A stretch of DNA of 64,000 nucleotides from positions 167,948 through 231,947 of the forward strand of contig JAKVKP010000002.1 of assembly GCA_022484805.1 (NCBI GenBank), given 5' to 3'. A program made the position numbers and the translations under genes. Shown here piece by piece: positions 48,550 through 52,668 of the stretch. Within the stretch, counting starts at the first letter, position 1. Each line of letters begins with the position of its first letter. The notes under the pieces are model-generated. The model was not told where the DNA came from and ran no database searches. It saw only the letters and a program-made list of their open reading frames with translations. The DNA is from Streptococcaceae bacterium. Lineage in GTDB: Bacteria; Bacillota; Bacilli; Lactobacillales; Streptococcaceae.

Positions 48550-49938
48550 TTAAATCTTAATCTCAATTTCTTGGATTGGCACATCATAAAAGCGATCTTC
48601 TCTTCTACCTAAAAAGTCTCGAGCAACCTGAGAAAAAAGTGCATATTCCAAAACATCTTCAATATTTTTAGCATAATTTGAGATTTCCTCAGTTAATTTT
48701 GGTAATTCTTCTTCTAATAAATCCGCTGGACGAACTTTAATTACTTTGGTATCACCAATAATTGAATGTCGCAATTTCTCATCAATTGGTGCGACTGCTT
48801 TCCCATATTTACCTGCTAGATAATTTTTAATTTCAGAGGAAACGAGCTGATACCGTTGACCTGTTAGTACATTCATCAATGCTTGTGTTCCGACCATTTG
48901 ACTCAACGGTGTTACTAAAGGTGGATATCCCAAATCTTTTCTAACCCTCGGTACTTCATTCAAAACTGTATCGAATTTTAATTCTAAACCTTGTTGCTCT
49001 AATTGAGATAGTAAATTTGAAAGCATCCCACCGGGCACTTGATAAATTAGTGCACGTGGATCAGTATATAGCATTTTCATTTTTAATAATCCATTTTCAC
49101 GATATTTTGAACGAATCGTTTTAAAGTACGCAGCAACTTCATTCAGTACTGCCATATTTAAATTCGTTTCAAAGCCTAGACCAGAAATACCCAAAGCCAT
49201 TGATTCAGTTGCCGGCTGGCTTGTACCGCCAGAAAATGGCGATATCGCCGTATCAATGATATCTGCTCCCGCCTCCAAGGCTTTTAAATAAGTCATTTTT
49301 GAAATACCTGCTGTCGCATGTGTATGAACTTCAAGTGGTAAATTAACAGCTGATTTGATATTTGCTACCAATTCATAGGCAATATTTGGTGTCATAATAC
49401 CAGCCATATCTTTAATACATAATGAATCTGCACCCATTTCAGCCATTTGAATTGCCAACTCAGTAAAATACTCTACTGTATGAACTGGACTTACTGTATA
49501 AGCAATCGCCAATTGTGCATGACCACCATACTTTTTACAAGCCCTTAAGCAAGCTTCAATATTTCTGACATCGTTCAATGCATCAAAAATGCGAATAACA
49601 TCAATACCATTCAAAATAGACTGCTTTACAAATGCTTCAACAACATCATCAGCATAATGTCGATATCCTAGCAAGCTCTGGCCACGTAAAAGCATCAAGA
49701 GCTTTGTTTTTTTAAATTTAGAGCGGAAAATTCGCAAACGTTCCCAAGGATCTTCATTCAAATATCTTATGCAGCTATCAAAGGTTGCACCACCCCAACA
49801 CTCAACCGCTTCATAGCCCGCCTCATCCATCACCTCCAGTATTGGAATCATATCTTCAATCGGCATTCTAGTTGCAATTAAGCTTTGCTGGGCATCACGT
49901 AAAACGGTTTCTGTTATTTTAATCATTTTAGTCTTCAT
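48550..49938 (-). CDS. oadA: Oxaloacetate decarboxylase alpha subunit (carboxyltransferase)
   Basis: This 462-residue carboxyltransferase moves CO2 from oxaloacetate to biotin. It has the HMG-CoA-lyase-like barrel with TETVLRDAQQSL, the metal-binding Asp in LRDAQQ, HTHATAG for metal histidines, and a PYC_OADA domain after it. It lacks the C-terminal biotin domain of the 590-residue enterobacterial enzyme; here biotin sits on a separate protein (51205-51597). The start at 49938 follows GAGGGAG; the oadG-like stop is two bases away. Confidence 0.92.
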   Translation of the reverse strand: MKTKMIKITETVLRDAQQSLIATRMPIEDMIPILEVMDEAGYEAVECWGGATFDSCIRYLNEDPWERLRIFRSKFKKTKLLMLLRGQSLLGYRHYADDVVEAFVKQSILNGIDVIRIFDALNDVRNIEACLRACKKYGGHAQLAIAYTVSPVHTVEYFTELAIQMAEMGADSLCIKDMAGIMTPNIAYELVANIKSAVNLPLEVHTHATAGISKMTYLKALEAGADIIDTAISPFSGGTSQPATESMALGISGLGFETNLNMAVLNEVAAYFKTIRSKYRENGLLKMKMLYTDPRALIYQVPGGMLSNLLSQLEQQGLELKFDTVLNEVPRVRKDLGYPPLVTPLSQMVGTQALMNVLTGQRYQLVSSEIKNYLAGKYGKAVAPIDEKLRHSIIGDTKVIKVRPADLLEEELPKLTEEISNYAKNIEDVLEYALFSQVARDFLGRREDRFYDVPIQEIEIKI

Positions 49939-51597: not shown

Positions 51598-51902
51598 CCT
51601 TTTCCCCTTTCTTAAAAAACAAAATAGCCTGAATAAACAATACTAAATAAACAACAAATACTGTCTCAAAAAATTGACAACATAACATGTTCGAATAAAT
51701 ATATACTTATGTTTTTTAAAAATCACGAATATATCTACTCAGAACTTTAAAGGACAATCAGTAGGTAACTTTTTTTAATATTTAAGCTTCTGTTTTAAAA
51801 TACAAGTTTTAAATTCTCGTTCTTTCATAAAAAAGCGATCTCATAAAGCGCTTAAATTCATTTTATGATGGATAATATCTACATTCTTGTAATTAATAAT
51901 AT
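51598..51902. other. Spacer before the decarboxylase operon
   Basis: These 305 AT-rich bases hold no supported ORF. They contain a weak hairpin with T-run (AAGCG...CGCTTTTTT, minus strand, 51829-51853), perhaps ending the upstream 105-residue gene. They also hold short direct repeats of TAGATATTAT near 51880-51900. No strong promoter for the operon is identified. Confidence 0.5.
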
Positions 51903-52220
51903 CTAGATTTTCTTAATTCCTATTATCTTAATGACTGAATGCTTGGCGTTATCTGCTGCAATACTAGTAGCAATAATGCTCACTTTCCTATAAATTGGAT
52001 TCTCCTTTTTAATGGATTTAATTTTAAATTTTGAGTTTCTCGCCTCTCTCGCAGCAATCGCTGTGACAATCAGTAAAACACATCTTTCTTCCCGAGCGTC
52101 CAAGTGTGTTTCAATATAAGGTTCAACAGCTTCATAGCCTGATTCTAATATCTTTTTTTCTGCCATTTCTATAGAATTATCACCTGATTTTAGAATGTTC
52201 AAAAACCATTTCAAAAGCAT
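51903..52220 (-). CDS. 105-residue protein with two decarboxylase-subunit-like motifs
   Basis: The protein starts MLLKWFLNILKSGDNSIEMA. Two tandem units follow: IVTAIAAREARNSKFKIKSI (then KKE) and IIATSIAADNAKHSVIKIIG (then IKKI). Each resembles the short C-terminal ending of OadG, MmdD and GcdD-type gamma/delta subunits (hydrophobic-AA-IAA ... h-h-x-SIRR). AGGAGG lies 8 bases before the ATG at 52220; the GTG nine bases earlier overlaps that site. It lies 305 bases before the biotin carrier gene, same strand. Function is inferred only from motif and place; an unrelated protein is possible. Confidence 0.6.
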   Translation of the reverse strand: MLLKWFLNILKSGDNSIEMAEKKILESGYEAVEPYIETHLDAREERCVLLIVTAIAAREARNSKFKIKSIKKENPIYRKVSIIATSIAADNAKHSVIKIIGIKKI

Positions 52221-52375: not shown

Positions 52376-52668
52376 CTAAAATGCCTCAAATTTCATACCG
52401 AAATTCTCGGAGAGTAAGTGCTTGTTGAGCCTTTGAACTAAGCTTTTAAAGCGCCTCTTGGTTGCTTCTAAAAGCAAGTTCAAATGCATACCTTTGTCAC
52501 TAACTGCCTCAAATTTCATACCAAAATTCTCGGAGAGTAAGTGCTTGTTGAGCCTTTGAACTAAGCTTTTAAAGCGCCCTTTGATTACTTTTAAAGACAA
52601 GTTCAAATGCATACCTTTGTCACTAACTGCCTCAAATTTCATACCGAAATTCTCGGTGAGTAAGTGAC
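52376..52668 (-). repeat. 123-bp tandem repeat with open 41-residue frame
   Basis: Two full units (52382-52504, 52505-52627) and a 41-base part of a third lie in direct tandem, period exactly 123 bases; the two full units differ at about 8 positions. On the minus strand the frame stays open through all units (52376-52642, 88 codons). It repeats MKFEAVSDKGMHLNL and FKSLVQRLNKHLLSENFG. There is no good ribosome site before the ATG, so translation is doubtful. It lies between the fusA terminator and the 105-residue gene. Confidence 0.8.

Follow-up and report, generated by a model that had tools for sequence, protein, structure and literature searches.

In Enterococcus faecalis, OadH is reported (Repizo 2013) to be vital for the interaction of OadA with OadD, and in methylmalonyl-CoA decarboxylase, which is another decarboxylase, the epsilon subunit MmdE repeats the tail of MmdD as a protein of its own, with a single tail. 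The genes of the Enterococcus faecalis oxaloacetate decarboxylase are ordered citHO / oadHDB-citCDEFX-oadA (PMC3198936). Two further papers describe OadH of this species as a novel subunit and functional homologue of OadG, present in a soluble OadADH complex (PMC6193673) whose activity is possible off the membrane (PMC8100219). In the OadG-containing enzyme the gamma tail is reported to bind, at a ratio of 1:2, the association domain of the alpha subunit, for which a likeness to the PT domain of pyruvate carboxylase has been proposed (PMC7274780). In the two-subunit pyruvate carboxylase MfPC, an Ala-rich helix is held by the beta sheets of two other subunits, and an Ala-to-Arg change in that helix abolishes assembly (PMC5059739).

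The window, by which we mean the whole stretch of 64,000 nucleotides analyzed here from a Streptococcaceae bacterium, contains an operon of this kind on its minus strand, in the order oadH-oadD-oadB-small oadG-oadA (Table 1). An earlier note on this DNA had placed a protein with a doubled OadG-type motif just ahead of the decarboxylase genes, on the same strand, and had drawn attention to an OadG-like gene of only 43 residues; position, strand and length all hold, as do the doubling of the motif and its kinship to OadG-type subunits described below. The oadH reading frame opens with an ATG preceded by AGGAGG and runs for 105 codons to a stop, and it is a real gene, since proteins 58% and 40% identical to its product are encoded at the equivalent position in both other genomes of the genus. 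Those two genomes have only 3-4 bp from oadH to oadD, whereas the gap in the window is 305 bp (51598-51902); no terminator-like site was found in it. The small OadG, scanned against Pfam and NCBIfam minus its first Met, scores 54.3 bits against NF040909 (curated cut-off 25); a biotin domain was sought in OadA of the window with the same two collections and no match was obtained. There is no citF match in the window genome, which is 89.7% complete, so the decarboxylase operon stands there without citrate lyase.

Table 1. Features of the oad operon in the window (positions count from the first letter of the window)
Feature	Position	Strand	Evidence and predicted structure
oadH-type gene, tandem-tail scaffold, 105 aa	51903..52220	-	homology, repeat and operon evidence
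tail unit 1, residues 44-73, EERCVLLIVTAIAAREARNSKFKIKSIKKE	52002-52091	-	repeat and profile; modelled helix at 42-59 and strand at 71-73
tail unit 2, residues 76-105, IYRKVSIIATSIAADNAKHSVIKIIGIKKI	51906-51995	-	repeat and profile; modelled helix at 75-91 and two strand residues at 103-104
oadD, biotin carrier, 130 aa	51205..51597	-	predicted hairpin at the N-terminus (strands 2-9 and 12-19), then a low-confidence linker and the biotinyl domain
oadB, predicted Na+-pumping carboxybiotin decarboxylase, 367 aa	50091..51194	-	match to the Na+-pump decarboxylase beta family
small membrane protein related to OadG, 43 aa	49941..50072	-	NF040909, PF04277
oadA, carboxyltransferase (oxaloacetate decarboxylase alpha chain), C-terminus GRREDRFYDVPIQEIEIKI	48550..49938	-	family match

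Two further features of the surroundings were seen. A 123-bp tandem repeat of 2.3 copies (52382-52666) lies in the interval separating oadH from the elongation factor G gene; it has 17 matching stretches genome-wide, the window copy included, and belongs to a dispersed repeat family; and in the nearest genus mate oadB is spread over two frames (L021:8662-9754), reflecting either a frameshift or an assembly error.

The two units of the window protein share 46.7% ungapped identity over 30 residues each; shuffling unit 2 10,000 times and taking the best of seven offsets never gave this value. Profiles of unit 1 and unit 2 from 40 homologues, a set biased toward two-unit proteins by being gathered with a profile of the full-length protein, both units included, align to each other with an hhalign probability of 99.3%, and no column-shuffled profile out of 200 matched the score; both units retain one common pattern throughout these homologues. 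The nearest neighbour of unit 1 is another unit 1 in 40/40 homologues and that of unit 2 another unit 2 in 32/40, a pattern that fits a single old duplication.

Profile comparisons indicate that both units are homologous to the C-terminal tail of OadG-type subunits. A profile of OadG tails (alignment A3) matches unit 1 with an hhalign probability of 95.7% and unit 2 with 95.1%, and 0/200 column shuffles did so in either case; these values favour clear tails, in that A3 comprises 24 Bacillota OadGs of 31 stretches from 30 loci, the seven left out being short or tail-odd and chosen by eye. Because column shuffling also destroys helix periodicity, an HMM built solely from OadH units was run as a second control, this time covering all 31 OadG stretches: among the 670 ORFs of the 30 loci, OadG ORFs take ranks 1-13, with just five at E below 0.01, and OadG accounts for 25 of the 39 reported rows, with 25/31 stretches recovered. 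The family was scanned as 64 members, of which 63 come from the 78 homologue matches and one is the window protein; 36 of them match Pfam OAD_gamma with E values no higher than 1 (best 3.6e-6), and the next family has 10. The top NCBIfam model is MmdE (NF047904), with 10/64 members at E up to 1 and a best value of 1.2e-4, and oadG_fam is matched by six (best 0.077). The window protein itself gave no match of usable score to any Pfam or NCBIfam model, OAD_gamma (at the Pfam gathering score), the NCBIfam OadG models and NF047904 included; the matches just named come from its relatives. Pfam and NCBIfam hold no model specific to the OadH family, whose named members among those listed are called hypothetical or uncharacterized. 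In sequence searches of the PDB, the OadH profile returned chance-level matches only, and the OadG profile placed the helix of the 6iva gamma chain on top (E 0.0052).

The likeness of the window protein to OadG (PF04277, TIGR01195) thus lies in the C-terminal tail; it differs in the lack of a transmembrane helix (hydropathy class noTM), in having two tails rather than one, and in lacking the W and GR that are common past the tail in the OadGs of A3. To MmdE it is linked by the leading NCBIfam model for its family, although MmdE serves a different enzyme; a literature search for an MmdE epsilon subunit found nothing. An arrangement that recalls MmdE was seen elsewhere, where an ORF of 50 aa carrying a second OadG tail lies shortly downstream of a full OadG (L055:1143-1292).

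The window protein is very likely OadH, the known subunit already reported in E. faecalis, given that the gene order agrees with the published E. faecalis cluster as it can be seen in E. moraviensis; the assignment is based on gene order and position. In E. moraviensis a two-tail protein of 109 aa occupies the oadH position, the order is oadH-oadD-oadB-small oadG-citC-citD-citE-citF-citX-oadA, which equals the published one except for the small oadG inserted between oadB and citC, and citG, a GntR/FCD regulator and a CitMHS transporter are divergent from oadH. No E. faecalis sequence is present in the 80 OadB loci among the matches listed, and the published E. faecalis primers gave nothing relevant in sets of 105, 10 and 22 genomes; the single match in the set of 10 had one mismatch, lay far from the oad loci of that genome and was rejected. 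Like its E. faecalis counterpart, the window gene is directly upstream of oadD; it differs in that its operon stands alone, without citF, and in being a diverged copy set 305 bp apart from oadD. Tandem OadG tails find no mention in the literature searched, a body of text to which the primary OadH paper does not belong, and we do not claim that they are absent from print.

Among 246 Lactobacillales genomes, the OadH profile has a match in 42 (slightly high, as the two weakest, G346 and G360, encode the one-tailed proteins of L190 and L191), OadB in 72 and small OadG in 48 (also slightly high, as the match in G328, L192, falls in a frame of 105 aa that the OadG profile also hits). All 42 fall inside both other sets, and among the genomes with OadB the association of OadH with small OadG has a Fisher test value of 7.5e-14, the genomes being related and so not independent. 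At 40 of the 48 profile-matched OadH places oadB follows within 5 kb on the same strand, and the other eight comprise two places at contig ends and six oadH-oadD-oadA operons; small OadG is immediately 3' of OadB at 49/50 places. The two points on which the earlier note had hung its suggestion, profile similarity to gamma-type subunits and a neighbourhood conserved in relatives, were therefore both found.

Two-tail OadH is present in 30 of the 80 named OadB loci among the matches listed, always in the order oadH-oadD-oadB-small oadG with oadA downstream. Such loci are from Enterococcus, Trichococcus, Vagococcus, Floricoccus, Streptococcus, Lacticaseibacillus zeae and Aerococcaceae. The two-tail operon is further found in Collinsella, a Coriobacteriaceae MAG and Candidatus Limicola (L108, L110-L112, L119, L121, L122), which we take to belong to a different phylum than the window genome; the OadB sequences of these loci are 81-87% identical to the query, which suggests transfer across phyla. 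In 49 of the 51 loci L128-L178, some of which end at contig edges, no one- or two-tail OadH-type protein was labelled, the exceptions being L135 and L139. The weakest matches of the homologue search are probably due to chance, and four regions around them (L035-L038) are without any oad gene.

The slot just 5' of oadD is filled by three types of scaffold: a membrane-anchored OadG with one tail (six operons, L185-L190), a soluble protein with one tail (Clostridium rhizosphaerae, L139, and L191) and the soluble protein with two tails. A search for soluble one-tail relatives gave 61 matches, the query's own protein included, of which 49 are 62-84 aa long; six of the remaining 12 were read, and they have a closely similar tail after a hydrophobic N-terminus, as in the Clostridium magnum gamma chain P0130. 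Since soluble one-tail and membrane one-tail types with similar tails both exist, loss of the membrane helix and duplication of the tail suggest themselves as separate steps, the order of which we infer. In two of the membrane-anchored one-tail operons (L188, L189) there are two neighbouring oadB-type genes, one of them distant by score.

We regard the OadH-type protein, with its two OadG tails, as a soluble assembly clamp likely to join OadD to OadA in a biotin-dependent, predicted Na+-pumping oxaloacetate decarboxylase, and give this reading a probability of roughly 0.6. The choice of partners comes from the six oadH-oadD-oadA operons (L033, L180-L184), in which neither oadB nor small oadG occurs in the 7-16 kb examined: the clamp has been retained there without the membrane subunits, which suggests OadA and OadD as its partners. 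These operons possibly encode dedicated soluble oxaloacetate decarboxylases. On the side of OadD, the N-terminal motif Y-x-VEMEE, in a region predicted to form a two-strand hairpin before a low-confidence linker, is invariant in 23/23 aligned proteins, as is the biotin site EAMKMEN; the alignment takes 23 of 27 OadDs (22 two-tail rows and one one-tail row) after omission of four near-identical Trichococcus rows, and the motif reads differently in the six membrane-anchored one-tail loci, so VEMEE is not universal. On the side of OadA, the C-terminal motif [FY]YD[IV]P is found in 47/49 two-tail loci, the exceptions reading FYDVA and WYDVP, and in 0/8 one-tail loci, or 0/7 without L149, a row cut at its start and whose class is not evidence. 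These OadA rows include same-contig duplicates (L032/L105, L030/L106, L031/L107) and exclude L191, whose OadA is beyond the stretch examined. Shared descent may explain part of the association of the OadA and OadD motifs with scaffold type.

If these precedents apply, one helix and one strand from each OadH unit would enter a composite domain of the PT/BT type, to which OadD would add its N-terminal hairpin and OadA its C-terminal segment; and since the chain carries two tails, a single OadH could bind a pair of carriers and so serve both OadA subunits in a dimer. The OadG-like protein of 43 residues would remain beside OadB in the membrane, where OadH, OadA and OadD would dock together or from which they would work detached as a soluble enzyme. 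The AlphaFold monomer model of OadH (pLDDT 82, pTM 0.57) gives each unit its helix, and the strands are short (Table 1), which supports the proposed unit of helix and strand only in part; Foldseek returned no match of the model in the PDB, which leaves the likeness to PT/BT domains one by analogy. The comparison with MfPC is likewise an analogy, with no sequence match, and differs in that one helix there serves two subunits, whereas OadH has two units per chain. An amphipathic N-terminal membrane helix was considered for OadH and found unsupported, with a mean hydrophobic-moment percentile of 0.60 versus shuffles and 9/40 proteins above 0.8.

A more specific form of the clamp, which we put forward tentatively and at somewhat less than even odds, makes OadH a covalent two-site staple. 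Its tandem helix-strand units would complete a pair of hairpins from OadD and a pair of C-terminal strands from OadA within a shared barrel, giving an H1D2A2 core, and the doubling of the tail after loss of the helix would have let a membrane Na+ pump also run in detachable, soluble form, a mode suggested by the oadH-oadD-oadA operons without oadB.

The two units may instead differ in their tasks, one binding the OadD hairpin and the other binding OadA or packing on unit 1, with one OadD per OadH. Unit 1 is the more conserved (mean identity across homologues 0.52 versus 0.42), its exclusive clustering with other unit 1 sequences speaks for separate histories and may mean separate jobs, and in the monomer model a single chain holds the two units at high local confidence; however, the pattern common to both units across the 40 homologues and their near-equal matches to the OadG tail go against such an asymmetry, which we consider unlikely, though the best placed of the alternatives to a symmetrical arrangement. 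Still less probable is a single functional unit followed by a spacer or decaying copy. Unit 2 is indeed more variable, and in the window it lacks the S-x-F that commonly precedes the strand, but it can be made out in the 40 homologues, which as a set favour proteins with two units, and also in 30 of the 80 listed OadB loci, which come from several families.

The earlier note had suggested that the functions of OadG are divided between two genes, with the small OadG as membrane anchor and the protein that we assign to OadH as scaffold. Part of this stands, as the scaffold is soluble, without a membrane helix, and has a duplicated tail. Compatible with a division are also the location of all OadH-profile genomes among those with a small-OadG match and the length of the small OadG, whose 43 residues compare with the gamma helix (residues 2-43) assigned in the StOAD beta-gamma structure (PMC7274780). 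The small OadG is, however, 3' of oadB in L185-L191, in L139 and in all two-tail loci having oadB, and in the six operons L185-L190 it is thus paired with a membrane-anchored one-tail OadG; it is therefore not simply the other half of the scaffold, and a clean split into anchor and scaffold is opposed by these loci and improbable. The likelier course is that a scaffold with a membrane helix of its own lost that helix and had its tail duplicated, a direction that we infer. That the small protein merely sits beside the operon and is not a decarboxylase subunit, as the missing Pfam and NCBIfam OadG matches of the window protein might be taken to say, is scarcely credible in view of OadB in 42/42 OadH-profile genomes and the profile homology to OadG tails.

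For enzymes whose alpha subunit is divided between OadA and OadD, we have seen no structure of the swinging biotin carrier tied to its carboxyltransferase, and the anatomy of OadH offers a concrete, testable answer to how carrier and carboxyltransferase are tethered. For a family otherwise called hypothetical or uncharacterized, the name OadH is suggested, and in E. moraviensis and others the small OadG is a fifth conserved gene, in addition to those of the four subunits named for E. faecalis. Together, the membrane one-tail, soluble one-tail and soluble two-tail scaffolds form a natural set for following how a membrane pump might become detachable.
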